Below, one piece after another: positions 9,864 to 30,351 of a stretch of 31,060 nt of DNA (within the stretch, counting starts at the first letter, position 1; every line of letters begins with the position of its first letter). The notes beneath the pieces were generated by a model. That model was not told the DNA's origin. It did no database searches and was given only the letters and a program-made list of their open reading frames with translations. The position numbers and the translations under genes are program-made. Source of the DNA: a virus; IMG/VR virus record IMGVR_UViG_3300027747_001637, positions 1 to 31,060 of that record; one strand, given 5' to 3'.

Positions 9864-10379
9864 TTATACTGCGAAATCTGCTGCTGCGGAAGAAACACCA
9901 CCTAACTTCTCACCATCTTCCAACTTCTGTAAGTTATTCAAACCGCACGCAATACCCTTAGAACCTGCTGCATTGTATGGGTAGAATGTAACTGAGGCAC
10001 GACCATAACAGCCACTATAAAAATCAGTTGTATCGTACAGTGCTTCACGATTAGCATCAACGATGTCTGGCTTTTGTGCTGAGTTAGCATTGATAAAATA
10101 ATGACCAGCATATGCTTCGTCTTCTTTCTCAACATCACCATCACGTAAACCACCTTTTAACATCTTAGGCACAGAACCGCCAAAGAAAGCCGCGTTGGTT
10201 GCTTTACATTCTTCAAATGCTTTTTGAAGTTTAGCAACACCTTCTTTATCTGACTTTGGAATTAAGATAGATACAGAATACTTTGGTGTGCCACCATCCA
10301 TACCAGCTTTTGGAACAAACACATTGGCGTATGAAAAACGTACTTTGCCAGTTACGATTTTAATTTTGTTTGACTGCAT
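9864..10379 (-). CDS. DUF2815 family ssDNA-binding-type protein
   Basis: 171 residues with the start of the family visible (GKVRFSYANVFVPKA), a central KYSVSILIPKSD strand, and AGHYFINANS and CYGRASVTFYPY blocks. DUF2815 proteins are OB-fold-like and act as the phage single-stranded DNA-binding protein in the Pol A/DUF2800/VRR-NUC cassette (family knowledge; function partly predicted). The acidic DGDVEKEDEAYAG segment and Ala-rich tail fit an SSB. It has a strong SD (AGGAG, 8 nt), its own sigma70 promoter and terminator, so it is a monocistronic unit, as expected for a protein needed in bulk. Confidence 0.88.
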   Translation of the reverse strand: MQSNKIKIVTGKVRFSYANVFVPKAGMDGGTPKYSVSILIPKSDKEGVAKLQKAFEECKATNAAFFGGSVPKMLKGGLRDGDVEKEDEAYAGHYFINANSAQKPDIVDANREALYDTTDFYSGCYGRASVTFYPYNAAGSKGIACGLNNLQKLEDGEKLGGVSSAAADFAV

Positions 10380-10401
10380 TTTAAGACTCCTATTAACATT
10401 A

Positions 10402-10428
10402 GAACTAGACTTGAGTCGGGGCTAGTTC
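10402..10428 (-). promoter_or_regulatory. Leader hairpin / operator-like inverted repeat before DUF2815
   Basis: GAACTAG (10402-10408) and CTAGTTC (10422-10428) form a perfect 7-bp inverted repeat, with a nested GACT-TG-AGTC inside. It lies between the promoter at 10445 and the SD, so it would be in the 5' leader. It could stabilise the mRNA or be a protein-binding operator; the sequence alone does not decide. Confidence 0.5.
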
Positions 10429-10444
10429 GTCTACCCGTAAAACT

Positions 10445-10726: not shown

Positions 10727-10876
10727 TTATGTTTGTAATGTCACCATAACCAATCCTACATTTCCTAAAGCATAACCAAGAAATGAGATCCCCATGCCTA
10801 CTTGGCCTTTCATTATAAATTGAATTGCTACAAATAAATAAACTAAACCAATTAAGCCAATTAACCAAGCGTTCAT
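10727..10876 (-). CDS. Small two-helix membrane protein
   Basis: 49 residues from ATG at 10876, overlapping the DUF2800 stop by ATGA. Residues about 3-20 (AWLIGLIGLVYLFVAIQF) and 28-47 (MGISFLGYALGNVGLVMVTL) are two hydrophobic segments joined by MKGQVG. Similar tiny membrane proteins occur beside replication genes in other phages, from memory. Function unknown; possible membrane anchor or superinfection factor. This is a better reading of 10727-10876 than the longer overlapping frame. Confidence 0.75.
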   Translation of the reverse strand: MNAWLIGLIGLVYLFVAIQFIMKGQVGMGISFLGYALGNVGLVMVTLQT

Positions 10877-12027
10877 TTGAAATCCTCTTTAGCAGTTTCT
10901 TTAACACGAACTAACTTAGGTTGTCCATCTGGTCGAATAATTAAATCACCTAACCAAGCCGCAACTTTTCCTTTAGGTCCAATCTTTTCTAATGCAGCAA
11001 CTGATTTTAATTTAGGTGTTTCCCAAAGTTGTTCTTTTGATAAACCATGTTCAATCAATACGGTGGCAGCAAGTTCATTATCAACAATTTTACGGTGCGT
11101 TACTGTGGTTGATAATTTATAACCATTTGGTATTTTGTTTTCCTCTACGGCTTTGGTGAGCGCGTACTCTTCAACATCATTTACCCACGTTTTTAGATCT
11201 TGGGCTTTGGCAAGGACGTTGATGATTTCTTCTTCACTAAGGAGCGGGGGGTCTTTGAAGTCTTGTTTGGCAAGTTCTGTGTTGAAGTCAGAGCGGGCAC
11301 GGCACTGGGCTTTTGCTCTACAGAATTGACACCAGTCGCCTGGGAGAAATTCGCCGGAGCCCGCCCACGCCTTCTTGGCTTTTGGTTTGATGAAGTAATC
11401 CGCCCAGTCGAGGAGTTTCGCAATGGTCGTGCCATCGGTACTGATCGAGTCGAGTCGGGGTTGGTGGATGGTGTAACTGACGTCTTTGATGTTGGGGTAT
11501 TCGTCTTTGAATTTGGAATAGGCTCCGAGAGCGTAGAGTCTGAGTTGGGAGTTGTCGGTTGCGGAAACGGGTATTCCTTTTCCAAACTTGAGGTCGATGA
11601 TGCGAATGGAGCGCTCAGAAAGTATAACCACATCGGCTGTACCAAATCCGTCAGGAACCCAGTCAGAGAAGTCGACACGTTGTTCAAATAACGGTGTGTC
11701 GCCGTCACCGATTTGGGAACGGACATAGAGAACGTAATTGTTGACGTTTTCCTCGAAATCCAACTGCTCTTCCTTCGTATATGTTTGGTATATCGGGTGC
11801 GCTTGAATGGATTCATATTCATCGTTGTATTCCTGTTGACTAATTTGACCAAAATAGATTTTTAAGCGTATTTCGCTTAATGTGTGAGCCAATGTGCCTT
11901 CCGCAGAGAAATCAATCCCCTTGGTATTTCTTTTAGGTTCTGGGAGGGTTGCTTCAAGTCTTGCTGAGGGTGTGCATGATATCCATCGTTTAGAACTGGA
12001 GGCACTTAATAGGGCGTGAGCTGTCAT
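10873..12027 (-). CDS. DUF2800 PDDEXK nuclease (Cas4/RecB-like, Fe-S)
   Basis: 384 residues beginning with the DUF2800 signature HALLSASSSKRWISC. Nuclease core: E115, D132 in GTADVV, D145-x-K147 (IDLKFGKG), and Q161 (SQLRLYALGAY), matching the RecB/Cas4 order. Four Cys in the AddB/Cas4 arrangement, C18 plus C233-x2-C236-x5-C242, likely bind a 4Fe-4S cluster. It probably acts as the phage recombination exonuclease, paired with the DUF2815 SSB. Bases about 11170-11720 are more GC-rich than the gene ends and create long spurious frames on both strands. Promoter motif at 12054-12087, SD-like GAAAG upstream of the ATG. Confidence 0.9.
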   Translation of the reverse strand: MTAHALLSASSSKRWISCTPSARLEATLPEPKRNTKGIDFSAEGTLAHTLSEIRLKIYFGQISQQEYNDEYESIQAHPIYQTYTKEEQLDFEENVNNYVLYVRSQIGDGDTPLFEQRVDFSDWVPDGFGTADVVILSERSIRIIDLKFGKGIPVSATDNSQLRLYALGAYSKFKDEYPNIKDVSYTIHQPRLDSISTDGTTIAKLLDWADYFIKPKAKKAWAGSGEFLPGDWCQFCRAKAQCRARSDFNTELAKQDFKDPPLLSEEEIINVLAKAQDLKTWVNDVEEYALTKAVEENKIPNGYKLSTTVTHRKIVDNELAATVLIEHGLSKEQLWETPKLKSVAALEKIGPKGKVAAWLGDLIIRPDGQPKLVRVKETAKEDFK

Positions 12028-12053
12028 GATATTCTTTCAATTCGGTTTAACTG

Positions 12054-12087
12054 TATATATACTAATGCAAAAAATCGCACAAGTCAA
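12054..12087 (-). promoter_or_regulatory. Promoter for DUF2800 gene with shared 16-bp motif (copy A)
   Basis: Minus strand carries ATTTTTTGCATTAGTA followed by TATATA (12054-12075). It is one of three identical 16-mers in the window, each placed before an operon. This copy can also be read as a sigma70 promoter: TTGACT (12082-12087), 17 bp, TAGTAT (12059-12064). Confidence 0.65.
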
Positions 12088-12105
12088 CCCGAATTAAAAA
12101 AATAT

Positions 12106-12501
12106 TTATTTGAGGGCGGAAAGTAATTCTGCTATTTCTTTGTTGAAATCAACCACAACTTCCTGTTTAATATTCGCTTTTATTTCACGATTATCTTTGT
12201 AGTCATCGGGATATTGACCCCGTAATGCGATTTCTGCTACCCGAGAATTAAAAGTTCTATTATCAACGTTCGCCAACATCATATTTTCCCAATATGCTTG
12301 TCCATAAGTGGTGGCTAAATCCATGGTTTCTTTAAATTCTGGATCTTCTTCTTTCCATTTTGCTGCGGTGGATTTACTAATATTAACTGCGGCATACATC
12401 GATTTTTGGGACGCACCTTGCTTACCCAATTCTAAAATTGTGTTCGCCATTTCTTTTGTAAATACTTTTTTATTTGCGGGTGGTCTGCCTCTAGTAGCCA
12501 T
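12106..12501 (-). CDS. Probable terminase small subunit / HTH DNA-binding protein
   Basis: 131 residues from ATG at 12501, sharing one base with the preceding stop (TAATG). N-terminal MATRGRPPANK, then a helix-turn-helix (residues about 15-55: ILELGKQGASQKSMYAAVNI, SKSTAAKWKEEDPEF), a central acidic-aromatic stretch (ATTYGQAYWENMMLANVDN), RGQYPDDYKDN, and a C-terminal FNKEIAELLSALK helix. This layout is that of many phage small terminases, which bind the packaging site and recruit the large terminase (family knowledge). No large terminase is in the window. A TTG start four codons upstream is possible but less likely. Confidence 0.65.
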   Translation of the reverse strand: MATRGRPPANKKVFTKEMANTILELGKQGASQKSMYAAVNISKSTAAKWKEEDPEFKETMDLATTYGQAYWENMMLANVDNRTFNSRVAEIALRGQYPDDYKDNREIKANIKQEVVVDFNKEIAELLSALK

Positions 12502-12770
12502 TAACAGTTCCAATTTTTTAATGATGCTTTTGCTCGGGGTGCGTCACCTTTAGCATGCTTAACCACACCTTCCATACGCGCACAGAACGATGCTTTACGA
12601 CCCTTATCAGATTCTGTCTTTGGGTTTGGAGCTGGTGCCTTTAAATTGCTACCGTTCTTGGCGTTGTATTGTGCTCGACCTTTGGCAGTCATACCAGCAC
12701 CTTGTTCGGTTTTGTTGTATGTCTTGCCAATACCAGTAGTTTTTTTGGGGATTGCTTTGTCGTGTGCCAT
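12501..12770 (-). CDS. Small basic phage protein, DUF6321-like
   Basis: 89 residues, strongly basic. Recognisable blocks: MTAKGRAQYNAKNGSNLKAP, KKASFCARMEG-type (here GRKASFCARMEGV), and a C-terminal KNWNC. These resemble the DUF6321 proteins common in environmental podoviruses, recalled from memory rather than checked. Function unknown; charge suggests nucleic acid binding. Shares one base with both neighbours (TAATG). Confidence 0.72.
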   Translation of the reverse strand: MAHDKAIPKKTTGIGKTYNKTEQGAGMTAKGRAQYNAKNGSNLKAPAPNPKTESDKGRKASFCARMEGVVKHAKGDAPRAKASLKNWNC

Positions 12771-12922
12771 TATTTTGGTTTCTTTGCAGTTTTAGCTGAG
12801 TCTTTAAAGTCTTTAGCCGATGGAGCACCTTTTGCCCCTACCTTGCGCATTTTTTCACCAGAGCCAGCCTTGATGCGCTCTTGCTTTCGGTGAATATTTT
12901 CGTATAGTCCTGGCTTTGCCAT
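12770..12922 (-). CDS. Small basic phage protein (MAKPGLYENIH family)
   Basis: 50 residues, from ATG at 12922 with SD AAGGAG. MAKPGLYENIHRKQERIKAG and a Lys/Ala-rich tail (AKDFKDSAKTAKKPK). Very similar small basic proteins accompany the preceding protein type in environmental phages. The in-frame extension upstream to 13003 runs through the promoter motif and is rejected. First gene of the unit with the terminase-like gene. Confidence 0.75.
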   Translation of the reverse strand: MAKPGLYENIHRKQERIKAGSGEKMRKVGAKGAPSAKDFKDSAKTAKKPK

Positions 12923-12978
12923 GATATCTCCTTGAATTGGGTAGGTTTCAAAGCGTCTCCCGACGAGTTTTACTCCCT

Positions 12979-13000
12979 TATATCTACTAATGCAAAAAAT
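12979..13000 (-). promoter_or_regulatory. Shared 16-bp promoter-like motif (copy B)
   Basis: Minus strand ATTTTTTGCATTAGTA followed by GATATA, 57 nt before the ATG at 12922. Identical 16-mer to copies A and C. No good sigma70 -35 stands at the right distance, which argues for a dedicated promoter class. Confidence 0.6.
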
Positions 13001-13014
13001 CAACTAAAACCGCC

Positions 13015-13236
13015 CTAGTTGGGCATGATAATAGTTTTCTTTTTTGGTGACGGTGGGGTTTTATTTGCTGCTTGATTGGCACGAAGCACCTCATTGAGCA
13101 TCATTTTAGTCATTGCCATGGCTTTTTCTTGATGTTCAATTTCCTGTTGTTGCGAAGTTTGAACAGCCTTACGCTCAACTTCAGCAATAATATCGTTACT
13201 AATTCCCGCTTTTTTCAGTAGTTGTCTTAGATTCAT
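13015..13236 (-). CDS. Small coiled-coil-like phage protein
   Basis: 73 residues: an N-terminal helix (MNLRQLLKKAGI), a Gln/Glu-rich helical middle (TSQQQEIEHQEKAMAMTKMM) likely to form a coiled coil, and a basic Pro/Lys tail. It overlaps the upstream gene by 38 nt in another frame, and ends 15 nt before promoter copy B. No family recognised. Confidence 0.6.
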   Translation of the reverse strand: MNLRQLLKKAGISNDIIAEVERKAVQTSQQQEIEHQEKAMAMTKMMLNEVLRANQAANKTPPSPKKKTIIMPN

Positions 13237-13429
13237 CTTCTGCCTTTTTATTTAACTCTTCAATCTGTGGGGCGCACTGATCTTGAATATTCACGATAAG
13301 GTTTGCCCAAGCCATTACGGGTGTTGTGAGTGGCTTGTTCACCATGTTAATAATGTCATTAATTTGTTCGATGGTATATTGCAGTACTACTACCTTATCA
13401 CTTAATGGGTTTTTTATTTCCTCAGTCAT
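13199..13429 (-). CDS. Small phage protein, unrecognised
   Basis: 76 residues from ATG at 13429, which lies inside the end of the preceding gene (8-nt overlap) with AAGG upstream. Sequence is helical, with IEQINDIINMVNKPLTTPVM and an acidic/polar tail. Small helical proteins of this kind occur in phage early clusters; function unknown. Confidence 0.6.
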   Translation of the reverse strand: MTEEIKNPLSDKVVVLQYTIEQINDIINMVNKPLTTPVMAWANLIVNIQDQCAPQIEELNKKAEDESKTTTEKSGN

Positions 13430-13700
13430 CTTTATTTTTACCTTTCTTAAAAAACTCTTCATCCCATTTACCAAAATGACCAGCTTTAATCATTATTTCA
13501 AACCCTTCCCACAGACGCTCGCACTGCAATTCATGGACACGCATAATACCGTCAAGGTAGTTTGCCACCTCGTCTTCATCCATTATGCGTGGTTTGTCTA
13601 TGTATTGACGAATAAATTCTTTCATCAACTCAGCAGTGTTCCACATCTTAATGATGTCTTGCTCTAAATCAAATCGGTCGTACTGACTAAATAATTTCAT
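13422..13700 (-). CDS. Small acidic helical phage protein
   Basis: 92 residues, acidic, predicted mostly helical (LEQDIIKMWNTAELMKEFIR; DEDEVANYLDGIMRVHELQ). The ATG overlaps the previous stop by ATGA. No family is recognised. Confidence 0.65.
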   Translation of the reverse strand: MKLFSQYDRFDLEQDIIKMWNTAELMKEFIRQYIDKPRIMDEDEVANYLDGIMRVHELQCERLWEGFEIMIKAGHFGKWDEEFFKKGKNKDD

Positions 13701-13924
13701 TTCTTTTTCCTTTTTGCTTTTGCTTCTTTAACCTTACCTTTAAAATCATAAAAAAACCATGTTCCCAATACTTCAATAGCTGCAACTACGTTTTGATAAA
13801 TCTCTTTATCATCGTCGTCCAAATTTTTACCACTTTTTAAATCTTCTGATAGGTTAAGGTAGGTTTCCATTAGGGCGCCCCTTACTATCTCATCACCAAA
13901 CTCATCATCAATTTCAACCATCAT
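13697..13924 (-). CDS. Small phage protein, unrecognised
   Basis: 75 residues from the ATG that overlaps the DUF3310 stop (ATGA). Acidic first half (EIDDEFGDEIVRGALMETYL) and a strongly basic C-terminus (KVKEAKAKRKKK). A GTG three codons upstream is in frame but lacks support. Function unknown. Confidence 0.62.
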   Translation of the reverse strand: MMVEIDDEFGDEIVRGALMETYLNLSEDLKSGKNLDDDDKEIYQNVVAAIEVLGTWFFYDFKGKVKEAKAKRKKK

Positions 13925-14190
13925 TTTCCGCACTCCCCATACTTACTCCGTTTAGTAATCTCTCGGTTGATATACCAAGCCGCCTTTCGTAAATCCTGGA
14001 CTGCGTTGTCTTTAAGATCCGCTCGCCATATATACTTAACGGCATTACCAAGATTAAATCCCATGTGCTCGGTAATTTGGATACACTCGACACCGCTTGG
14101 GTGTGCTGTGTAATGTTTTGGCCTATTAACATTGTCTTTTTCTCGCTCAAGTAATTCACACATTGAAGGTATTTCATAATTACATGTCAT
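13921..14190 (-). CDS. DUF3310 family protein
   Basis: 89 residues containing the DUF3310 core: NRPKHYTAHPSGVECIQITE, then HMGFNLGNAVKYIWRADLKD and LRKAAWYINREI. The family is widespread in phages and is often labelled nucleotide kinase on slender evidence; no Walker A motif is visible here, so I do not assign kinase activity. Part of the ATGA-linked run between the helicase and promoter B. Confidence 0.88.
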   Translation of the reverse strand: MTCNYEIPSMCELLEREKDNVNRPKHYTAHPSGVECIQITEHMGFNLGNAVKYIWRADLKDNAVQDLRKAAWYINREITKRSKYGECGK

Positions 14191-14359
14191 TTAACTTCTC
14201 CCTTTTAATTTCACAAACAACCATTAAAACTTCCATCATATTTTCACAAAAGAAAATCTTCTTAATAGGTTCAAACTGCGTCGTATCAATTTCATCTACA
14301 TCAATTAGTACTTGTAAATGATAAGCACCACCTTTTTCATGCTCAATAACTAAATGCAT
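14180..14359 (-). CDS. Small phage protein, unrecognised (59 aa)
   Basis: ATG at 14359, one base after the preceding stop; stop overlaps the DUF3310 start by 11 nt. The product starts MHLVIEHEKGGAYHLQVLID and alternates beta-like and helical segments, with KIFFCENMMEVLMVVCEIKR near the end. The tight fit between neighbours, lack of stop codons and GGAGA SD for the next gene near its 3' end support a real gene. No family recognised. Confidence 0.65.
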   Translation of the reverse strand: MHLVIEHEKGGAYHLQVLIDVDEIDTTQFEPIKKIFFCENMMEVLMVVCEIKREKLNDM

Positions 14360-14360
14360 A

Positions 14361-14666
14361 TTATATCCCCAATTCTTTTTTTAAAAATTCAATCCCAGAT
14401 AAAAAATGATGTCGCCAATATTTTTCACTCATATTCAAATCATTATACGATAAACCTTGTAAAAATGCATTAAAAATTTCTCGTTGTTTTTCTTGCATGC
14501 GCGTATCAATTAGGCGTTTTATATCTAATATGTCGTCACTATCCCATAAAAGCCAACCACTGCTCTCAATAATGCTTGATGAAATACCTTCTGTTTCATC
14601 TTGCTCAATTGGATCAGGATCTTCGTCTGATAGTCTTGGTGCTACTGCTTGTATTTTTGATGTCAT
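14361..14666 (-). CDS. Sigma region-4-like / HTH regulator
   Basis: 101 residues. The first half is acidic. Residues about 57-98 (MQEKQREIFNAFLQGLSYND then LNMSEKYWRHHFLSGIEFLK) resemble sigma-70 region 4 or ArpU/RinA-type phage activators: a R-E-I-F helix, GLSY start of a second helix, then a recognition helix with basic/aromatic residues. The linker between helices is a few residues shorter than in typical region 4. Overlaps the helicase stop by ATGA. It could be a late-gene activator or the missing region 4 partner of the truncated sigma factor at 22124. Similarity judged by eye only. Confidence 0.5.
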   Translation of the reverse strand: MTSKIQAVAPRLSDEDPDPIEQDETEGISSSIIESSGWLLWDSDDILDIKRLIDTRMQEKQREIFNAFLQGLSYNDLNMSEKYWRHHFLSGIEFLKKELGI

Positions 14667-15991
14667 AGTTTTAGTGATTCCAATAATGCGTCTTGTAAAT
14701 TAATCTTACCTTCTAATACTTCTACTACTTTTTGGTCAATGCTGTTATTTACAATCAGGTGGTGTATGACAACAGGTTTTTCTTGCCCTTGGCGGTATAC
14801 CCGTGCATTCGCTTGGATGTAGTTCTCTGAGCTCCAAGGTAAGTCGAACCAGACCGTCTGTGCAATTTCTCCACTGTTGCACTGTAAATTAATCCCGATT
14901 CCCCCCGATTGTGGGTGTGCGAGCAACATACGAATCTTCCCACTACGCCACGCCTCAATGTTGTCATCGTCCAGCACCACGGCGTACGGGAAACTGAGGC
15001 GAATCCTCTGTAGACTGTGCTTAAAGTGATAGAAGACGAGTGTCGGAGCGGAAGATTCTTCCATGATCGACTCAAGGTATTCCATTTTAGAACGGTGTAT
15101 TTCGTGTGTTGTTCCTTCTTCTTTGTAAACTGCGCCGCTAGTGAATTGGAGTAACTTGCCCGCCAACGCGGCTGCTGTTGGAGCCGTGATGTTCCCCGTA
15201 TCTGTACTAAGGACCATGTCTTTTCTAAGTTCGTCATATTGCTTCCTTACGTTAGTGTCAATTTCAATTTGATGGTAAATGTTACTTAATGTCGGTAATT
15301 GTAAATAATCACCTGCTTTTAGTGACAAGCATATGTCATTTATTTTATTCTGTATAAGTAAACTACTGGTTGGCTTTGGTACCCAATTATAAACCACGCC
15401 AGTGTGTCTGTTACGTTGACCTGGCTCCATATACTTATCCCTAAACTTTGTTAGGCTCGTCTCCAGCCTCTGGCCTAAGTCTAAAATGCCAACCTGGCTC
15501 CATAGGTCTTGTAAACCTTGCGGCGACGGTGTCCCAGTTAGAATCAACCTTCTCTTGAAACTTTTTAGGTGTTTCTTCAGTGCTTTGAATCGCTTCGTTG
15601 CCGGATCCTTGAACCGACTGCTCTCGTCGATGATAAGATAGTCGAACTCCTTCTTCTGTTCTAACAACCACACTAAATTCTCTAGATTGGTCACATAGAT
15701 GTTTGATGAACTTTCTAATGCTATCTGCCTTTGCTTCGGTGTCCCCATCACTTTCGCCACCTTGAAGTGCTTCAAATGCTCCCACTTCTGACATTCCTGA
15801 GCCCATACCGACTCCGCCACTCGCTTCGGTGCCACGATGAGGGTTGTCCCCTTCGGTGCCTCCGAGATGATGGTGAGCGCCGTCACAGTCTTCCCCAAAC
15901 CTGGCTCCATGAACAGCCCCATGTGCGGGGTTGTCTTGGCTTTCTTGATGACTTCCAGTTGGTATTGGTGTAGGTTGGTTTTGTTTAACAT
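14663..15991 (-). CDS. SNF2-type DEAD-like helicase
   Basis: 442 residues. Motif I MEPGLGKT (31-35 GLGKT), Ia LIVAPKRVAESVW, II IDESSRFKD (D122-E123), III LTGTPSPQG (151-159), then the C-terminal RecA fold with GGIGINLQ and QANARVYRQGQEKPV (motif VI). This is the phage SNF2-like ATPase that normally accompanies VRR-NUC, used in replication or recombination as a DNA translocase/helicase. The ATG at 15991 lies deep inside the endonuclease VII frame. Bases 15560-15960 (N-terminal ATPase core) have much higher GC at third positions than the 3' part. Confidence 0.93.
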   Translation of the reverse strand: MLNKTNLHQYQLEVIKKAKTTPHMGLFMEPGLGKTVTALTIISEAPKGTTLIVAPKRVAESVWAQECQKWEHLKHFKVAKVMGTPKQRQIALESSSNIYVTNLENLVWLLEQKKEFDYLIIDESSRFKDPATKRFKALKKHLKSFKRRLILTGTPSPQGLQDLWSQVGILDLGQRLETSLTKFRDKYMEPGQRNRHTGVVYNWVPKPTSSLLIQNKINDICLSLKAGDYLQLPTLSNIYHQIEIDTNVRKQYDELRKDMVLSTDTGNITAPTAAALAGKLLQFTSGAVYKEEGTTHEIHRSKMEYLESIMEESSAPTLVFYHFKHSLQRIRLSFPYAVVLDDDNIEAWRSGKIRMLLAHPQSGGIGINLQCNSGEIAQTVWFDLPWSSENYIQANARVYRQGQEKPVVIHHLIVNNSIDQKVVEVLEGKINLQDALLESLKL

Positions 15992-16268
15992 GATATTCTA
16001 TATAAAGTGCAGCAAATCGTAAAAGTTCGGGTGAGTCTTTGAATTTACCTAGTCCAGTGTTACATAACCTACAAAGAACGCCGCGTAATTTTTTGGTTGT
16101 GTGGCAATGATCAACGTTGGTATCTAGTTTGTTTTTAAATGGTTCACGACAAATTGCACAGACATTATTTTGTTTAGAAATGATGTCATTTTTTTGTTGT
16201 GCCTCAATTCCATATCGATGACGTAAATTATATGTTTCCCTAGTTTGCTTCAATGAATGCCTCCACAT
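15441..16268 (-). CDS. Endonuclease VII family nuclease with overprinted C-terminal extension
   Basis: 275 residues. Residues 37-85 carry the recombination endonuclease VII/HNH core: C37-x2-C40, D53-H54-x-H56, C66-x2-C69-N70, TGLGKFKDSPELLRFAALY, equivalent to the T4 endonuclease VII zinc site (C-x2-C...C-x2-C) and catalytic D/H/N. It would resolve branched DNA before packaging. A typical family member ends near residue 95; here the frame continues for 180 more residues across 551 nt of the helicase gene in another frame. That extension (Gly/His/Glu-rich) has no recognisable fold and may be a by-product of local GC content or a lost stop codon. Start overlaps VRR-NUC end by 29 nt. Confidence 0.82.
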   Translation of the reverse strand: MWRHSLKQTRETYNLRHRYGIEAQQKNDIISKQNNVCAICREPFKNKLDTNVDHCHTTKKLRGVLCRLCNTGLGKFKDSPELLRFAALYIEYHVKQNQPTPIPTGSHQESQDNPAHGAVHGARFGEDCDGAHHHLGGTEGDNPHRGTEASGGVGMGSGMSEVGAFEALQGGESDGDTEAKADSIRKFIKHLCDQSREFSVVVRTEEGVRLSYHRREQSVQGSGNEAIQSTEETPKKFQEKVDSNWDTVAARFTRPMEPGWHFRLRPEAGDEPNKV

Positions 16269-16512
16269 CTTCTTTTGATTTTAACACATGCACTGGAAAA
16301 CCATGTTGTTTAAGTTCGTCGAATACGAGCACTTGTCTTGGGCTTAGTTTTCCCGTTTCCGTTTTTAGTTCTACTAGGTGTACTTTTTGGTTTAGAAACA
16401 CTAGCCTGTCCGGCACCCCCGTCACTGTCGAGAGCCATTTGTAACATAGTCCCGACGATTGCTTGATTCGTTTCATTAGATACTTTTCTATTTCTTTTTC
16501 TAGCACTTTCAC
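16240..16512 (-). CDS. VRR-NUC domain nuclease
   Basis: About 90 residues. I place the start at GTG 16512 because GGAGG stands at 16522-16526, 9 nt away; ATG 16521 and ATG 16533 are alternatives with no usable SD. Core: EKEIEKYLMKRI, GVPDRLVFL (PD catalytic), VHLVELKTETGKLSPRQ (E-x-K), LVFDELKQHGFPVHVLKSKE, DVEAFI. This is the minimal PD-(D/E)XK VRR-NUC of phages, related to the structure-specific nuclease FAN1, and a partner of the SNF2 helicase. About 200 nt of it are also read as the C-terminus of the HExxH protein gene. Confidence 0.88.
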   Translation of the reverse strand: MKVLEKEIEKYLMKRIKQSSGLCYKWLSTVTGVPDRLVFLNQKVHLVELKTETGKLSPRQVLVFDELKQHGFPVHVLKSKEDVEAFIEAN

Positions 16513-16915
16513 GGTTGTCATCCTCCGTTGCATAAATCGCAAATACCTGTTTAAAAATATGCTCTCCCAAATACGAGCGAGATTCATCACCAATTTTAGC
16601 CTCATCTTCACCAATATATTGAAACACATGGGTGGTGGTGTGTGATACTTCATGGTAAATAATACCCATCCGCTCCAGAGCATCTAGTTTTTTCATTTCT
16701 TCATAATTAAACACAATGCCCAACATAGAGTGCAATGTGCCTTCTTGCTGAATATAATGTGACTCTGCAATACCAAGATCGAGAGCACTATGTTTAGTTG
16801 TTATTTTGGAGTTCCTGACGGCTTGTTGAAAAGCCTCGTCAGAAAAACACACCTTTATTTTTACATTAAAGTGGCCAGTATCTGCTTCGTAGTAAAGTAA
16901 TTGTTCGATAGTCAT
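16310..16915 (-). CDS. HExxH zinc-metallopeptidase-like protein with overprinted tail
   Basis: 201 residues. GIIYHEVSHTTTHVFQYIGE contains H88-E89-x2-H92, and DESRSYLGEHIF supplies a candidate third ligand E111, as in the small phage metallopeptidase-like proteins with a later E-x-x-AY motif. Substrate and role unknown. Residues 1-133 are the conserved-looking part; from about 135 the frame overlaps VRR-NUC and yields a Ser/Thr/Lys/Pro-rich tail (KPKSTPSRTKNGNGKTKPKT). ATG overlaps the upstream stop (ATGA). Confidence 0.72.
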   Translation of the reverse strand: MTIEQLLYYEADTGHFNVKIKVCFSDEAFQQAVRNSKITTKHSALDLGIAESHYIQQEGTLHSMLGIVFNYEEMKKLDALERMGIIYHEVSHTTTHVFQYIGEDEAKIGDESRSYLGEHIFKQVFAIYATEDDNRESARKRNRKVSNETNQAIVGTMLQMALDSDGGAGQASVSKPKSTPSRTKNGNGKTKPKTSARIRRT

Positions 16916-17262
16916 GTTATCTGCGGCTCACTTTTTGGTTGATATTTGTCTAAAATGTTAGCCATGTCGCACATTTCTAATGACCCACCCTGTTCTTTGA
17001 GTTGCTTTTCAAAGTCCACATATACTTGCGCGGTATGTGCACTCATGCCTTGTGACTTTTTGTGACATAAATACACACTGCCTGACTCATTGTGTATTTC
17101 GTAATGATTATCATTCTCAATTACCTTGACGATGCCCGAGCTGAGTCGCCAATTATCTGATCCCAAGAAGCCGCCGTACCAACTACCCATCACTTTGTCG
17201 ATGTCCAGTTCGTCTATTTTTAAGTTTACAACCTGCCACCTATCCGGTATATATTCTGCCAT
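16912..17262 (-). CDS. Conserved-looking phage protein, unrecognised
   Basis: 116 residues; strong SD AGGAGG 5 nt before ATG. The N-terminal 65 residues look like a beta-rich domain with aromatic residues (VMGSWYGGFLGSDNWRLSSG, YEIHNESGSVYLCHKK), the C-terminal part is helical. No motif identified. It is the first gene of the HExxH-nuclease-helicase run and follows a 97-nt gap with repeated TCGTACA sites. Confidence 0.68.
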   Translation of the reverse strand: MAEYIPDRWQVVNLKIDELDIDKVMGSWYGGFLGSDNWRLSSGIVKVIENDNHYEIHNESGSVYLCHKKSQGMSAHTAQVYVDFEKQLKEQGGSLEMCDMANILDKYQPKSEPQIT

Positions 17263-17292
17263 AATTCCTCCTTTTCAATATGAAACACAAAA

Positions 17293-17349
17293 TCGTACAA
17301 TTACTTGGAAACTCAAACTTTTTCGTACACTTACACACTTTTTCGTACA
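17293..17349. promoter_or_regulatory. Three TCGTACA sites in the leader of the nuclease operon
   Basis: TCGTACA occurs at 17293, 17323 and 17343, two within the longer shared CTTTTTCGTACA. Spacings of 30 and 20 bp put the sites on the same face of the helix. They lie in the 97-nt gap before the gene at 17262, where a promoter is expected. Candidate protein-binding sites; no clear -35/-10 pair. Confidence 0.4.
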
Positions 17350-17358
17350 AATCTACAC

Positions 17359-17535
17359 TTACCCTAACTTTTCTTTCAACAAACTAATCTCTTCTCGCAA
17401 TACACCAATCATATGTCCTGCTTCGTTCAATTCGGCTTCTTGTTGACGTAGCATGGTGGCGGCTAATTTAATATCTTCATAATCTGTGCCTGTATAAATC
17501 TCATCCAATTTATAAGCTAATTCATTTGCTGTCAT
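17359..17535 (-). CDS. Small helical phage protein (58 aa)
   Basis: Start ATG 17535 with GGAGG 6 nt upstream, inside the previous gene (14-nt overlap). MTANELAYKLDEIYTGTDYE then a Leu/Glu heptad-like C-terminus (AGHMIGVLREEISLLKEKLG) that probably forms a coiled coil. Similar short ANELA-type proteins occur in other phages. Function unknown. Confidence 0.68.
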   Translation of the reverse strand: MTANELAYKLDEIYTGTDYEDIKLAATMLRQQEAELNEAGHMIGVLREEISLLKEKLG

Positions 17536-17713
17536 CTTCATCCTCCACAACAAAGTCCAAGTGTCCTTCAAATACAAAACCACAGCCACGCAAGAAGTCT
17601 TCAAAATGTAGTACAACTTCGCCTAATTCAACAGTCTCAAACTCCATGCCAAAGTTAGCATGATGTTCTTCATATACTGTGTTGTTACGTTCTTTTGCAA
17701 ATGTAAATATCAT
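17522..17713 (-). CDS. Small acidic phage protein (63 aa)
   Basis: ATG overlaps the upstream stop (ATGA). Contains VVLHFEDFLRGCGFVFEGHL followed by DFV, a pattern I recall from short conserved phage proteins that end in an HF-x2-FL-x-G-x-GF...LDFV motif. Acidic tail. Function unknown. Confidence 0.68.
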   Translation of the reverse strand: MIFTFAKERNNTVYEEHHANFGMEFETVELGEVVLHFEDFLRGCGFVFEGHLDFVVEDEDDSK

Positions 17714-17814
17714 TTCTCACCCCCTTCAACCATATAAACAATACCGCCAATTAAAATTAATAAACAAATAACAGAGCCAAACATACCAACTAAAAACCAC
17801 AAAACTTCATTCAT
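17710..17814 (-). CDS. 34-aa single-span membrane peptide
   Basis: ATG 17814 overlaps the upstream stop and its TGA overlaps the next ATG. The product is MNEVLWFLVGMFGSVICLLI then LIGGIVYMVEGGEK: one hydrophobic span with short polar ends. It is a convincing tiny gene because both junctions are ATGA. Function unknown. Confidence 0.68.
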   Translation of the reverse strand: MNEVLWFLVGMFGSVICLLILIGGIVYMVEGGEK

Positions 17815-17996
17815 TGTTCTCTCGCTTTCATCATTGCGTCTGCAATTACATAACAGTCTTTTGCATCTTTGATTTCTTCATTTTTATGCCATGTCATTAT
17901 GTTCATCGCTTGACAAGCAAAGTAATCTCTTAAATCCATGCCTTGATGTGGGTCATCCCATGAATCTAATGGTTTTGTTGTTGGAAATGCTTTCAT
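17811..17996 (-). CDS. Small conserved phage protein (GMDLRDYFA motif)
   Basis: 61 residues from ATG 17996 (ATGA overlap). GMDLRDYFACQAMN and the terminal YVIADAMMKARE match a small domain that is common in phages of Proteobacteria (from memory: DLRDYFAA...AYxIADAMLxARE). Function unknown. Confidence 0.76.
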   Translation of the reverse strand: MKAFPTTKPLDSWDDPHQGMDLRDYFACQAMNIMTWHKNEEIKDAKDCYVIADAMMKAREQ

Positions 17997-18175
17997 TTCT
18001 TCCTCGCTTCCTTTTGTTCTGCTAAGTAATCCGCCTTCCATTTGCGATAACCTTCTTGGCATTTTTCACATTCACATTCAAACGTAACCATATCAGGGTC
18101 AACAAGCATACCCTCGCCTTTAATTGGTGCTAAACCAAATGGATTTTCTAAACTCATAAGTTCTTTTTGTTTCAT
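17993..18175 (-). CDS. Small phage protein with cysteine pair
   Basis: 60 residues from ATG 18175, overlapping the upstream stop (ATGA) with GAGGA nearby. Central FECECEKCQEGYRKWK has three cysteines (C-x-C-x2-C) that could bind metal. Basic, Lys/Glu-rich C-terminus. No family recognised. Confidence 0.65.
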   Translation of the reverse strand: MKQKELMSLENPFGLAPIKGEGMLVDPDMVTFECECEKCQEGYRKWKADYLAEQKEARKK

Positions 18176-18345
18176 TTCTTCCTCGCTATTCTGCAATCTG
18201 CTTTCTGTTGTGGTGTGAAATCAGGGCTAATCTCTGACAGCTCACAGTCCCGTATCTTCCAGTGAGTCGGATCGTTTGGAATGATTGTCACAACCAAAAC
18301 GAACCCACAAATAAACGTCGCTATTAATCCAGCCAGTGTTTTCAA
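18172..18345 (-). CDS. Small membrane-anchored protein, TTG start
   Basis: 57 residues. No ATG is present, but AGGAGG stands 7 nt before TTG 18345, and the frame is bounded by ATGA-type overlaps on both sides. N-terminal hydrophobic segment LAGLIATFICGFVLVVTIIP (anchor or signal), then WKIRDCELSEISPDFTPQQK and a basic end. Cysteines C34 and C51 could form a disulfide outside the membrane. Spanin-like or lipoprotein-like small phage proteins look similar, but no lipobox is present. Confidence 0.66.
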   Translation of the reverse strand: MKTLAGLIATFICGFVLVVTIIPNDPTHWKIRDCELSEISPDFTPQQKADCRIARKK

Positions 18346-18527
18346 AATGGTGCCTCCTCGACTTCATAAGTTTTAAACTTTTGTGGCAGTTCTTTAATGC
18401 TTAAACTCGAATCACTACCAATAAAGTTTTTTGCTTGAGCTTTGGTATGAAACCCGCGCAGTGATTCATTGTTCTCATCCACCACCATAAAACGAGTTGC
18501 CGTATACATTGGAATGTTTAACACCAT
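18342..18527 (-). CDS. Small phage protein, unrecognised (61 aa)
   Basis: ATG 18527 lies two bases after the primase-helicase stop, with GAGGAGG 9 nt upstream inside that gene's end. Beta-like N-terminus (TATRFMVVDENNESLRGFHT) and acidic end EVEEAPF. No family recognised. Confidence 0.65.
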   Translation of the reverse strand: MVLNIPMYTATRFMVVDENNESLRGFHTKAQAKNFIGSDSSLSIKELPQKFKTYEVEEAPF

Positions 18528-18528
18528 A

Positions 18529-20856
18529 TTAAAATACCTCCTCACTAAAAGATTCAATACTCGCAATATACTTCATCGCTTTTGGATTTAATTTAACACC
18601 ACGATATATGTGTATTCTACCACCGTTTGATCTGTCAATGTCAACATCAATCTGATGTTCTTGTGTTGCAGCCAAAAAGCGACGTTTAAATGCCAGTTCA
18701 GTGCCAGGGGGCAATGATTTTGCTAAAGCCCATCGTTTATAGCAAGCGAATACATCATCCTTCGCCACAGTTCCAATTGCATCAAACACTAAGGCATCCT
18801 CACAGAACGAACCAATTGGATTACCCAGTTCAGCCATCAAGTCTAATAAGTTACGACCAGACTTAGGTTGTATAAAATGTCCACCCCTTTCTAATCGACG
18901 TTTCAGCCCTTCCATCGCCCAGTTAAAGATGCCCGACAACTCTTTTGACAATCTTGAAAACAGTTCAGTATCTTCGCCATCATAAAAGGATTTTGTCATC
19001 TTGAGTACCACCATACGACCAGTCAAAGCGTTGGAGTTTTCAGTCAACTGCAACACCTCATTGGAATACACTATGATTCGTGTTGGGAGATAGCCGTTCC
19101 ACGACTCCTTGTTCTTTCGATTGACTGTAACAGTGTCGCCGCCAACAATTCTAAGGAGTTGAGAGACAACAGCACTACGGTTACGCTCAGGGGCACGGGC
19201 ATCGGTGAAAGAAGCGAGTAACTTACCCAACCAAGGTTGAAGACCAAAAGTATCACAGAGTTCCTCCAATTGTGGTGCTACTGTATTGTGTTGACCAAGA
19301 AGTTCAACGAGCACCTTGTTAATCGTTCCCTTGCCCGAACGACGTGGGCCAATGATATTAAAAAACTTCTGTTGCCTTGTATCTCCACTGATGACGTACC
19401 CAAATATCTCTTGCAGTGTTTCAATTGACTCTGGATCAGCACCCCAAATGGATTCTAAAAACTTCATCCACTCGGGACACAATGCCTTCGGGTCATAAGC
19501 AAATGGTAATGAGTTTGGTGTAAAGAAACCAAGTGAATGAGGCAACACTACATAGTCTTTCAAATGAAACAATCCATTTTTAAGTGAGATTAAATCTCTT
19601 GCATCGGGTTGGTTGTTGGCATAACTCTCTAACCAAATCGGTGGCTTAGTGTTAGGATGGTTTGGTAAGTGGGTGATTGACTTCACTGCATCCAATGCCG
19701 CGGACACACTTGCCGGTGAGGGGTTGAACGAAACCAATTGACCCTTCTTATCAAACTTCTTACACTTATCCAAAAAAGTATACAATTTAGAACGAACGGT
19801 AGCCTCTTCAATAATCTCATAATGTGTGCCAACGTGCGAGTAAAAGTCCTCAGCATAATGCACTAACGAATATCCCTCTTCGTTGGTAAACAAACTATCA
19901 AGAAAAATCCTCGCATGATTCATCGTGCCTTGGTCTAACACAATCTCACCTCGCTCCAAGGCTTCTTGACGAACTTTAGAGTTTACCTTGTAAATGAGTG
20001 ATCGCAATGTGTAAATTCCAAGGTTGTTTCTTTTAAATGTCTTCCATTTCTCAAAACACGAATTTGGACCCGTTGCCTGGTATGATGACACCGAACCATC
20101 TGCATACGACCACCTATCCCACAACTCACACGCTTCGGGATCACCTTTAAATTGATGATGTAATGCACATCCAATGTTCAGCCAGTCTTGATACCCACAA
20201 TTTGGGTCTAATTGGGTGAGTAATTGGGTTTCTACCCTTGCCAAATCCCAGTCTGGGATGGGTGGCTTGTAATCAGCAAAATCATCGCCAGTGATATGTA
20301 CTGTTCTATCGGGAATTACGTTTGATAGGTCTTGCTCTTCACTTGGAATTGTGCCTTTTAAATGTTGTCCAGTTACCGTAAAGTACCTACCGTTTGGATA
20401 GGCCTCAAACCCAATCGAATGGTCAACGTGGGCAGACTTTAAATTACCCCTTGTAAATATCTTTACACCAGTTCCTGATGGACTTACTTCCATATACCCA
20501 TCGATGGATGTGGCAATTTGTTGCAGTGCAACATTTGTGAAACTCTTCAAATCTGCATCGTAGCAATCATCCAAGTCCACACCAATTAGATTATCTTCTT
20601 CGCTAAAGACAAAGCCAATTCCACTGAAATGATGGGGGTTTTTCTCATACGCAGCTTGGACAGTTAGGAAGTCTGTCCAGGTGCTTGGGTTTGTTGATGA
20701 GGCAGATTGCCCACTGGTTTGAACTGGTAACTTACTCCACTTTTTGTTACCCTCAGATCCCACTTCGGTATGATTCCACAAAACCCATCGTGGGATTTGC
20801 TTCAGTTCCATGGGTATGTTTGAAAAATTAACTGGTAATGCTGTTGGCTTTTGCAT
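18529..20856 (-). CDS. Primase-polymerase / D5-like SF3 helicase
   Basis: 775 residues. The N-terminal 170 residues form an archaeo-eukaryotic-type primase: GVDLDDC (D94, D96, D97 candidates), EVSPSGTGVKIF, and E151...RYFTVTG. A PriCT-2-like region follows (LDPNCGYQDWLNIGCALHHQ). The C-terminal half is a D5_N/SF3 helicase with Walker A GPRRSGKGT (503-511), then SFTDAR, VGGDTVTVNRK and a sensor-like RIIVYSNEV. It unwinds the origin and primes synthesis for the Pol A. It is the first gene left of the origin-like region 20857-21174, with SD AAAGGA. Related to phage P4-type and VapE-associated primases. Confidence 0.93.
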   Translation of the reverse strand: MQKPTALPVNFSNIPMELKQIPRWVLWNHTEVGSEGNKKWSKLPVQTSGQSASSTNPSTWTDFLTVQAAYEKNPHHFSGIGFVFSEEDNLIGVDLDDCYDADLKSFTNVALQQIATSIDGYMEVSPSGTGVKIFTRGNLKSAHVDHSIGFEAYPNGRYFTVTGQHLKGTIPSEEQDLSNVIPDRTVHITGDDFADYKPPIPDWDLARVETQLLTQLDPNCGYQDWLNIGCALHHQFKGDPEACELWDRWSYADGSVSSYQATGPNSCFEKWKTFKRNNLGIYTLRSLIYKVNSKVRQEALERGEIVLDQGTMNHARIFLDSLFTNEEGYSLVHYAEDFYSHVGTHYEIIEEATVRSKLYTFLDKCKKFDKKGQLVSFNPSPASVSAALDAVKSITHLPNHPNTKPPIWLESYANNQPDARDLISLKNGLFHLKDYVVLPHSLGFFTPNSLPFAYDPKALCPEWMKFLESIWGADPESIETLQEIFGYVISGDTRQQKFFNIIGPRRSGKGTINKVLVELLGQHNTVAPQLEELCDTFGLQPWLGKLLASFTDARAPERNRSAVVSQLLRIVGGDTVTVNRKNKESWNGYLPTRIIVYSNEVLQLTENSNALTGRMVVLKMTKSFYDGEDTELFSRLSKELSGIFNWAMEGLKRRLERGGHFIQPKSGRNLLDLMAELGNPIGSFCEDALVFDAIGTVAKDDVFACYKRWALAKSLPPGTELAFKRRFLAATQEHQIDVDIDRSNGGRIHIYRGVKLNPKAMKYIASIESFSEEVF

Positions 20857-20984
20857 GGTTTCCTTTCTAATTTGTTACTAGTGTACAAGTTTTTTTAAAA
20901 AAGAACAACACCATTATCATTTTTTCACAACTGTTAACGTTTTTTCCATTTATTAAACATTTATGACACTCTGGAGATGACTGC

Positions 20985-21014
20985 AAGTTAACCGAAGTTA
21001 GCCGAAGTTAACGT
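20985..21014. repeat. Three 10-bp iterons (AAGTTARCCG)
   Basis: Three abutting copies: AAGTTAACCG, AAGTTAGCCG, AAGTTAACGT. A GTTAACGT also occurs at 20933-20940. The 10-bp period puts each copy on the same helical face. Adjacent to the primase-helicase gene and to an AT-rich tract, which is the usual layout of a phage replication origin. Confidence 0.65.
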
Positions 21015-21019
21015 ATAGA

Positions 21020-21134
21020 GTACTAGTAGGATGGGTTGTACCCCTTACTTTGTTTATTTTTTTATTTTTTTAAAAGAATAAAATAAAATAAAGAAAAAGA
21101 GTAAACATACCCATACTACCCATCCTACTGGTAC
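21020..21134. repeat. Large imperfect inverted repeat around an AT-rich loop
   Basis: GTACTAGTAGGATGGG (21020-21035) and CCCATCCTACTGGTAC (21119-21134) pair with one mismatch. The interior 21049-21108 is nearly pure A/T. The right arm with its extension, 21109-21134 (26 nt), is an exact reverse complement of 30996-31021; TTGTACCCCTTAC (21036-21048) also recurs at 30918-30930. With the iterons this makes the 425-nt gap 20857-21281 a candidate origin. Confidence 0.75.
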
Positions 21135-21174
21135 AAATTTAGGTTTATTTTTGGTAATGGGGCGAATTAATGCT

Positions 21175-21196
21175 ATTTTTTGCATTAGTAGGTATA
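21175..21196 (+). promoter_or_regulatory. Shared 16-bp promoter-like motif (copy C)
   Basis: Plus strand ATTTTTTGCATTAGTA followed by GGTATA, about 86 nt before the HNH start at 21282. Same 16-mer as at 12054 and 12979 but on the other strand, matching the strand of the gene it precedes. Confidence 0.6.
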
Positions 21197-21281: not shown

Positions 21282-21635
21282 ATGCCAACAAACAACAATA
21301 CCAAAAATGGTAGAATATCTAATATTCTTACTACTGTTAAAGCTCGAGCAAAAAAGAAAAATTTACCATTTAACTTAACTCAAATTTATCTAAAATCAAT
21401 TGTCACAGATTCTTGCCCTATTTTTGGTTTTCCTTTAATGTGGGAAAGAAAAACTTCAAACACTCATCGAGCAGCATATTTTGATTCGCCGTCATTAGAT
21501 AGATTAATTCCAGAAAAAGGATATGTTGAAGGAAATGTTGTTTGGGTATCTATGAAAGCAAATTATATTAAAAGCAATGCGACTTCAGAAGAACTTATTA
21601 AAGTAGCAGAATGGTTGAAAACTAAAGATTGTTAA
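21282..21635 (+). CDS. HNH-type endonuclease, only + strand early gene
   Basis: 117 residues with AGGA 8 nt upstream. Motifs: basic helical N-terminus (ILTTVKARAKKKNLPFNLT), CPIFGFPL, then SPSLDRLIPEKGYVEGNVVW, VSMKANYIKSNATSEEL and VAEWL. This CP-h-FG-h-PL...SLDRI/L-P-x-x-GYV-GNV pattern is a frequent free-standing phage HNH nuclease. It runs against the surrounding genes and carries its own promoter copy C, as expected for an inserted mobile nuclease. Ends 4 nt inside the convergent gene. Confidence 0.82.
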   Translation: MPTNNNTKNGRISNILTTVKARAKKKNLPFNLTQIYLKSIVTDSCPIFGFPLMWERKTSNTHRAAYFDSPSLDRLIPEKGYVEGNVVWVSMKANYIKSNATSEELIKVAEWLKTKDC

Positions 21636-28290: not shown

Positions 28291-28446
28291 GTTAACCCCT
28301 TAAATTAATTAATAAAATTTACTACTCTTTTATTTTCATGCATTGCAAGCATTTTTTATATAGGTACATACCCTATTAGGGTATACCCCAGGGGCTTTGA
28401 GATATTTTGGTTTTTCGTGGAATAACATAAAACCATAATCGATTTT

Positions 28447-28557
28447 AAGGGCATTTTTAGGCGTTTTGAGACGTTTTTTAACGACTTGGGGTAAGTGGGT
28501 TAGGACGTGTCTAATCGTTCAATACAAGCCGTTCTGAGAGTTAGGGTTTACCCTAAT
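28447..28557. repeat. 111-bp imperfect direct repeat, copy 1
   Basis: Aligns without gaps to 28757-28867, exactly 310 bp away. The last 51 nt differ at only about five positions and share GTCTAATCGTTCAATA and TTCTGAGAGTTAGGGTTTAC; the first 60 nt are more divergent (shared GGCGTTTT, AGTGGGTTA). Confidence 0.82.
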
Positions 28558-28565
28558 ATAAATTC

Positions 28566-28625
28566 ATTATTTTGGTGCGATCCAGATTTGTCAATTAGGG
28601 AAAACCCTTATGTTGTATTTATGCA
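28566..28625 (-). promoter_or_regulatory. Operator-promoter module U4
   Basis: Minus strand: TGCATAAATACAACATAAGGGTT-type palindrome (28596-28608), then TTGACA (28589-28594), 17-bp spacer with TCTGG and GCACC, and AATAAT (28566-28571). Best sigma70 match of the leftward modules. Confidence 0.6.
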
Positions 28626-28637
28626 ACGGCCGAAAAA

Positions 28638-28712
28638 GTCAATAGGTGTTTACCCTAGTGTTGCCAGATCACCACACTTTTGTTGTCAATAGGTGTTTAC
28701 CCTAATATGTTG
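28638..28712 (-). promoter_or_regulatory. Operator-promoter modules U2 and U3
   Basis: Two near-identical cores reading GTCAATAGGTGTTTACCCTA on the plus strand at 28638 and 28685. On the minus strand each gives AGGGTAAACACCTATTGAC. -35 boxes are clear; -10 boxes are poor (TGGCAA for U2), so these may serve mainly as binding sites. Confidence 0.5.
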
Positions 28713-28756
28713 TTTTTATGCAATTCCAGGCTGCACTAATATGATGCATCCACAAT

Positions 28757-28867
28757 AAGGGGCTTTTTAGGGGCTTAGAGGCGTTTTTACTTGAGTTGGA
28801 ACTAGTGGGTTAACCCATGTCTAATCGTTCAATATAGGGCATTCTGAGAGTTAGGGTTTACCCTAAT
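28757..28867. repeat. 111-bp imperfect direct repeat, copy 2
   Basis: Second copy of the repeat at 28447-28557. Together the copies bracket modules U2-U4. Both end in the AGGGTTTACCCT palindrome. Confidence 0.82.
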
Positions 28868-28873
28868 CCAGGT

Positions 28874-28927
28874 GCACCAATATGGTGCTGAATTAGGAAG
28901 TCAATAGGGGTTTACCCTATGTGTTGT
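28874..28927 (-). promoter_or_regulatory. Operator-promoter module U1
   Basis: Minus strand: ACAACACATAGGGTAAACCC, TTGACT (28899-28904), 16-bp spacer, TATTGG (28877-28882) lying inside the palindrome GCACCATATTGGTGC (28874-28888). A protein bound to the second palindrome would cover the -10. Confidence 0.55.
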
Positions 28928-28954
28928 TTTGCTGCAACGATCTGGAATAGGGGT

Positions 28955-28983
28955 AAAAAAAACCCCTAGATAAACTAGGGGTT
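28955..28983 (-). terminator. Rho-independent terminator of the AT-rich block
   Basis: Minus strand CCCCTAGTTTATCTAGGGG (28963-28981) followed by eight T (28955-28962). It ends the transcript of the genes 30220-29008 before the promoter array. Confidence 0.9.
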
Positions 28984-29007
28984 ATAAAGTACTGCTAGGG
29001 TTTAAAT

Positions 29008-29241
29008 TTATAGCATAGATTTTAATTCTAATTTTAATCTTTTAGCATCATCCCCTTTAAATGTACTAGCATTCGCTAAAAAATATCTTACTATTGATTT
29101 TCCATCATCATACATATACATATCATTAACGGTATGCAAATAAGTCATTGCTTGTAAATATGGTATCGCTCCAAAATATGGCTTTTTCCATGTGGATAAT
29201 ATCTCATATGCAATAGTATTCACTTGTCTTTTATCATTCAT
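29008..29241 (-). CDS. Conserved small phage protein (77 aa)
   Basis: NTIAYEILSTWKKPYFGAIP, YLQAMTYLHTV, GKSIVRYFLANASTFKGDDA, KRLKLELKSML. The AxPYLxAM...YFLxNAxxFxGxxAxxxKxEL pattern is shared by many small phage proteins of unknown role. SD AGGGG. Strongly AT-rich codons. Ends 25 nt before the terminator. Confidence 0.76.
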   Translation of the reverse strand: MNDKRQVNTIAYEILSTWKKPYFGAIPYLQAMTYLHTVNDMYMYDDGKSIVRYFLANASTFKGDDAKRLKLELKSML

Positions 29242-29242
29242 A

Positions 29243-29389: not shown

Positions 29390-29422
29390 AATATAACCCC
29401 TATAAATTAAATTAATAAAATG

Positions 29423-29473: not shown

Positions 29474-29481
29474 AAGTAATA

Positions 29482-30108: not shown

Positions 30109-30109
30109 A

Positions 30110-30310: not shown

Positions 30311-30351
30311 AATATTACTAATAGTTATTAATAATGCATCCTTTATAACAC

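Follow-up and report, generated by a model that had tools for sequence, protein, structure and literature searches.

Putative bipartite promoters and two candidate sigma factor pieces in a group of uncultured, mostly freshwater phages

The window and its three motif copies

The window analyzed here, a 31,060-nucleotide stretch of viral DNA (IMG/VR record IMGVR_UViG_3300027747_001637, positions 1 to 31,060), is a phage fragment carrying tail and peptidase genes on the plus strand and a leftward region that comprises genes encoding DNA polymerase A, ribonucleotide reductase, an Enc34-type single-strand binding protein, and a DUF2800 exonuclease, together with SNF2 helicase, primase/helicase, methylase, and sigma factor genes (Table 1). 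Directly before the single-strand binding protein gene, the DUF2815 RNA (Rfam RF03084) scores above its gathering score at 10377-10437 (-), and a 15-bp tandem repeat of seven units (CTAGGGGTACCAGCA) lies inside the M23 peptidase ORF at 2855-2960. The palindromic repeat TAGGGTTTACCCTA is matched 21 times in the window (2.8 expected), clustered at 28377-30676, mostly in non-coding DNA of the right-hand end and within TTGACA/TTGTCA-17-TATGTT-like units, which are possibly early promoters with a repressor operator.

The window contains three exact copies of the 16-mer ATTTTTTGCATTAGTA, copy A at 12060-12075 (-), copy B at 12985-13000 (-), and copy C at 21175-21190 (+), and in each case TATA follows after two further bases. 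As the preliminary description of this DNA had noted, every copy lies on the coding strand of the gene downstream, namely the DUF2800 exonuclease gene, the terminase-small-subunit operon, and an HNH/endonuclease-like ORF. Its claim that such a triple match is not due to chance held up, as no non-simple 16-mer reached three copies in 100 dinucleotide-preserving shuffles of the window. The remaining 16-mers found at least three times in the window are members of different repeat families, of which several are tandem; the 16-mer AACAACCACCAGTTGA occurs 13 times. When three mismatches were allowed, the pattern gave four matches against 1.33 expected in the window, which is not significant, and the strength of the three-copy observation therefore lies in the exact identity of the copies.

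Table 1. Positions of the putative promoters and associated genes in the window
Feature	Position	Strand	Description
Promoter copy A	12054-12090	-	GGG-TTGACT-N17-TAGTAT-A-TATA; exonuclease-type hybrid with a sigma-70 -35 (putative)
Promoter copy B	12979-13015	-	GGGCG (13015-13011)-N15-TTGCATTAGTA (12995-12985)-GA-TATA; bipartite pattern, 0 mismatches (putative)
Promoter copy C	21160-21196	+	GGGCG (21160-21164)-N15-TTGCATTAGTA (21180-21190)-GG-TATA; bipartite pattern, 0 mismatches (putative)
DUF2800 exonuclease	10873-12027	-	First gene of the copy A operon
Copy B operon	12106-12922	-	50-aa gene (ATG at 12922), 89-aa gene, terminase small subunit-like gene (12106-12513)
HNH/endonuclease VII-like ORF	21282-21635	+	Downstream of copy C; phrog_3322, E 9e-31
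Region-4-like protein, 101 aa	14361-14666	-	Conserved; stand-alone helix-turn-helix resembling sigma region 4 in the C-terminal half
Phage sigma factor, 189 aa	22124-22693	-	Regions 1.2, 2, and 3; no region 4

A usable sigma-70 -35 hexamer is present only in copy A, again as first described, with TTGACT (12087-12082) separated by 17 bp from the -10 hexamer TAGTAT (12064-12059). In the copy A operon, the DUF2800 gene is followed by the genes encoding the Enc34-type ssDNA-binding protein, ribonucleotide reductase, and DNA polymerase A. The predicted transcription starts lie near 12052 for copy A, approximately 25 bp before the DUF2800 ATG, near 12977 for copy B, and near 21198 for copy C. A short GNRA-type hairpin (CGTCGGGAGACG) follows copy B.

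Anatomy and distribution of the bipartite element

Scanning viral contigs for TTTTTTGCATTAGTANNTATA yielded at least 118 stretches, and in an alignment of 86 non-redundant copies among the matches listed, the motif was joined by an upstream GGGCG and a purine-rich start, usually GG. The full element is GGGCG-N15-TTGCATTAGTR-NN-TATA-G. A relaxed-pattern search, which found 17 non-redundant copies with one mismatch, 13 with two, and 12 with three, reduced the core to TTGCATTAGTR-NN-TATA, with the T run dispensable and TTGCATTAGT conserved; the reversed control pattern gave no copies up to three mismatches. The 16-mer is part of this larger element, and its leading T run is not kept in relatives; the preliminary description had seen only half of a bipartite element and missed the region-4-like protein considered below.

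The spacing within the element is unusually rigid: within 60 upstream bases, GGGCG was found at one exact position in 82 cases and elsewhere in two. It lies at about -38 to -34, some 3-4 bp upstream of where a sigma-70 -35 would be; this offset and the rigid spacing count against the two-piece sigma reading proposed below. Nineteen copies form a subclass in which TTGAC, at a fixed position, replaces GGGCG, and those inspected precede the exonuclease gene. The last -10 base is T (TAGTAT) in all 19, and the start is mostly CA, whereas in the GGGCG copies this -10 base varies and the start is mostly G. Since the TTGAC subclass always carries TAGTAT, TAGTAN can be taken as the -10 hexamer and the exonuclease promoter as a hybrid with a sigma-70 promoter. 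Transcription is predicted to start at the G approximately seven bases after TAGTAN.

These features bear on three other ways of reading the element. It might act as RNA or as an intrinsic terminator, with a U run after a GGGC...GCCC hairpin, and several exonuclease-type copies (e.g., in L005 and L031) do form perfect hairpins directly before TTTTTT. Over 153 GGGCG copies, however, the hairpin was no better than when the 3' arms were dealt out among the copies (8.41 vs. 8.27), the T run is not conserved whereas TTGCATTAGT is, and no Rfam match was found in 11980-13060, so that we rejected this reading as highly improbable. The continuous core ending in TATA followed by GG recalls promoters of single-subunit T7-type RNA polymerases, in which TATA precedes a +1 G. 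This origin appears equally far-fetched to us, as the invariant GGGCG at -38 and the presence of a sigma factor gene do not fit it; PF00940 matched none of 16 contigs, which weighs little because the control was likewise silent. In the sigma-54 consensus, the GG-to-GC distance is about 10 nt. Reading TTGCA as part of a sigma-54 promoter was rejected, since that distance is 20 nt here.

In the window and five large contigs, motif copies are nearly all intergenic, with two inside ORFs as called, and the distance to the following gene is mostly 15-111 bp, a few copies being further off or overlapping the called start. Genes downstream of the motif include those encoding the exonuclease, the portal protein, virion and tail proteins, and the terminase-small-subunit operon. 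Contigs of 30-68 kb carry about two to eight copies each, and the reversed control has almost no matches. Downstream of the motif in L053, L014, L025, and L152, there is a long conserved leader (GGAAGA...CTTCCCGGTGAGACGACTCAGAGACAGTTTGGGAT...CCCAC), which is likely a structured 5' leader RNA; in L152 it precedes a putative virion gene, and in L053 an Rfam match was obtained only at chance level.

Bacterial genomes are essentially free of the motif: the bipartite element was found on only two contigs of the GTDB collection, one of them phage-like, from a betaproteobacterial MAG, and sharing the leader sequence, the other with what looks like a chance match in coding DNA. Contigs G001 and G006, each with a single exact 21-mer match and neither a bipartite copy, the sigma factor, nor the region-4 protein, were treated as chance matches and discarded as carriers. 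The element is therefore found as members of a phage sigma-dependent promoter class are, conserved, repeated before phage operons, and absent elsewhere, and it appears to be used as a dedicated start-of-transcription signal by a large, uncultured, mostly freshwater phage group.

Candidate readers of the element

The sigma factor encoded in the window belongs to the sigma-70 family, with Pfam Sigma70_r1_2, r2, and r3 all above cut-off and a match to phrog_351 (E 9e-30). Among PDB entries it resembles primary sigma factors, with SigA matched at E 4e-31 over profile positions 6-175, and its predicted model matches sigma structures in Foldseek (E 3e-10). No region 4 was found on the chain, which ends after region 3, as do all 12 aligned homologs. 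These data make it a candidate reader of the -10/extended -10 part of the element.

A search by protein, not by motif, retrieved 191 sigma relatives from viral contigs. Within the DNA examined, 63 of the 80 best of these loci carry the bipartite motif (85 matches vs. none in the reversed control), although the sigma-selected loci overlap the motif-selected sample, some of them coming from contigs already found by the motif. The sigma family is present on every contig longer than 40 kb with the bipartite element, and no sigma factor was found on two contigs with only a chance 21-mer match. An antisense promoter facing the sigma gene occurs in only 2 of 69 loci and was rejected as a general means of autoregulation.

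Sigma factor and promoter have also changed together. Residue 96 of the sigma factor lies within a FATYA stretch that aligns with FSTYA of SigA region 2.3. Sigma factors with T at this site go with a G at promoter position 12 (the G of TAGTA) in 107 of 123 pattern matches; the other matches have no GGGCG and look like chance. In the clade that carries G at residue 96, position 12 is T in 13 of 14 matches and never G, the fourteenth looking like chance; a single sigma sequence with A at this site goes with T or A at position 12. All genuine promoter copies in the residue-96-G genomes changed together. Natural sigma factors thus include a FATYA type and a FAGYA type (contig G043), and natural promoters include GCATTAGT and GCATTATT. 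The residue-96-G sigma factors form one nested clade on the tree, and the change therefore counts as one evolutionary event.

The suggestion that the motif marks a dedicated phage promoter class emerges from these comparisons as the best explanation, given its intergenic recurrence before operons, including virion operons, in many related phages, its co-occurrence with a phage sigma factor, and its covariation with a sigma region-2 residue. Alternatively, all copies could be host sigma-70-type extended -10 promoters modulated by a phage activator, with the phage sigma factor serving other promoters. Copy A and its orthologs are good sigma-70 promoters (TTGAC, 17 bp, TAGTAT), but a -35 hexamer is missing from most copies, in which the -10 often does not end in T, the core co-changes with a phage sigma residue, and the motif is essentially missing from bacterial genomes; we consider this reading improbable.

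The N-terminal half of the 101-aa protein is acidic, and its C-terminal half follows the pattern MPxKQRxVLxAFLxGLSYNDIxVTEKYWRYHFxKGIEFIKKEL. Its sole Pfam match, Sigma70_r4_2, is sub-threshold; the AlphaFold model is confident only in the C-terminal half, and its Foldseek matches in the PDB are mostly sigma-4 domains but with E > 0.5. In profile-profile comparison, the protein matched region 4 of ECF sigma factors with 91-96% probability (E down to 5e-9), compared with 26% for GerE/LuxR and 0.2% for the reversed control; a LuxR/GerE helix-turn-helix, weaker than region 4 at equal depth, was rejected. The region-4 assignment thus rests on profile-profile comparison, with the single-sequence Pfam and Foldseek matches sub-threshold, and the protein is regarded as a candidate reader of GGGCG.

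In a shared-gene comparison, the 101-aa protein was universal among six contigs. It is encoded on 26 of 32 large contigs; of the other six, two have no bipartite motif, one is a fragment that lacks the sigma factor, and three end before the syntenic stretch. Searching with this protein alone retrieved 485 viral contigs. In all 49 loci that extend far enough, the motif follows the region-4 gene on the same strand at a distance of 1.5-2.1 kb (0 in the control), and this promoter is the one that matches copy B. No fusion of the region-4 protein to the sigma factor was found among the open frames (101-133 codons) of the loci examined. At L199:8876-9181 (+), a second, divergent region-4-like copy (38% identity) shares the locus of the usual one. 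Other candidates were discarded: a 56-aa ORF resembling sigma region 4.2 (L132:17515-17682 (-), contig G003), just upstream of a conserved 201-aa gene and present only in that contig, and the 116-aa and 201-aa neighbors in the same gene block, in which no domain was found.

Another possibility is that the sigma factor reads TTGCATTAGTR and GGGCG is an operator of another activator or of the host alpha subunit, with the 101-aa protein serving not as half of a sigma factor but as a coactivator or, in the manner of T4 gp33 or AsiA/MotA, as a sigma-appropriation factor. The weak Foldseek E-values of the 101-aa model would agree with this, and T4 gp33 offers a precedent in that it clamps the flap like region 4 while being structurally unrelated to it (PMC7892883). 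Profile comparison, however, favors region 4 over the GerE/LuxR fold at equal depth, the 101-aa protein is as widely conserved as the sigma factor, and the shared genes yielded no further universal candidate for DNA binding. We regard this alternative as unlikely, although less so than the others.

The sigma factor, the region-4 protein, and the motif are inherited together within one phage group, and their co-occurrence is therefore partly due to shared ancestry. The cultured relatives Caulobacter phage RW and Caudoviricetes sp. MW202545, which have the portal protein in common with this group (52-54% identity), the former also having DUF2800, DUF2815, and DNA polymerase genes, encode neither the sigma factor nor the 101-aa protein and have no motif within five mismatches. 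In the comparison with related phages proposed in the preliminary description, relatives keeping some replication and head genes but lacking the sigma factor thus also lack the motif, as is expected of a sigma-dependent promoter. Our searches found neither the motif nor the 101-aa protein in any cultured phage.

Proposed mechanism and comparison with known systems

The element probably marks a class of promoters used by host RNA polymerase after reprogramming by a two-piece phage sigma factor, which would switch transcription to the replication, packaging, and virion operons. From the anatomy, placement, and distribution of the motif, its co-occurrence with the two genes, the domain content of their products, and one sigma-promoter co-change, all of which were observed, we infer binding, assembly into one holoenzyme, timing, and start sites as follows. 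Early genes, including those for the sigma factor and the 101-aa protein, both in the motif-free part of the leftward region, would be expressed first. The sigma factor (regions 1.2-2-3) would load on host RNA polymerase and read TTGCATTAGTR through regions 2 and 3. Because it lacks region 4, GGGCG would be read by the separate 101-aa protein, probably docked on the polymerase flap, and the two together, as a two-piece sigma factor, would turn transcription to the replication, packaging, and virion operons. In the exonuclease promoter, the motif core appears fused to a sigma-70 -35, and this promoter may therefore also fire early with the host sigma factor.

We consider it somewhat more likely than not that this phage group combines two separately encoded sigma pieces of different origin (SigA-like regions 1.2-3 and an ECF-like region 4), a non-sigma-70-like -35 (GGGCG) in a rigidly spaced promoter, and an early-to-middle hand-over at the exonuclease promoter; no description of a split sigma factor of this kind in phages was found in the literature searched, the coverage of which was incomplete. 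The analysis provides a promoter code and two candidate readers for a phage group represented by at least 118 contigs with the motif, 191 with the sigma factor, and 485 with the region-4 protein, and with this code operons and expression classes become predictable from sequence. If the two-piece sigma factor is real, it would show regions 1.2-3 and region 4 acting as separate proteins in nature, and the change of residue 96 and the -10 base would offer a natural specificity switch for testing base choice by region 2.

Phage sigma factors acting with a partner are familiar from SPO1, in which gp33 and gp34 act as a pair. The SPO1 gp28/gp34 system is similar to the one proposed here in being a phage sigma cascade for middle and late genes (PMC9429907), but differs in host group and promoter sequences. 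T4 late promoters contain only a -10-like element. The T4 late gp55/gp33/gp45 system resembles the present one in pairing a small phage sigma factor with another small phage protein at the flap of the polymerase; gp33 has no structural relationship to region 4 and by itself does not bind DNA (PMC7892883), whereas the 101-aa protein matches region 4 and the element here is bipartite.

Also comparable are phiEco32 gp36 and Salmonella phage 7-11 gp47, phage sigma factors that redirect host RNA polymerase to a few promoters before middle and late operons. The former lacks region 4 and uses one-element promoters, whereas the latter contains region 4 and uses bipartite promoters (PMC8948821), so that a bipartite promoter together with a region-4-less sigma factor calls for a second reader. 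The element here is not a gp36-type single-element promoter, as GGGCG stands at a fixed distance, and it resembles 7-11 promoters in being bipartite; gp47, however, carries region 4 itself, whereas here region 4 appears to be on a separate protein, and the promoter sequences differ from those of both systems.

The domain division recalls Bacillus subtilis SigO-RsoA, in which sigma domains are divided between two polypeptides (PMC10141391), as they appear to be split over two genes here. SigO-RsoA is a bacterial stress sigma factor, whereas both pieces here are phage-encoded, approximately 8 kb apart, the large one SigA-like (regions 1.2-3) and the small one ECF region-4-like.
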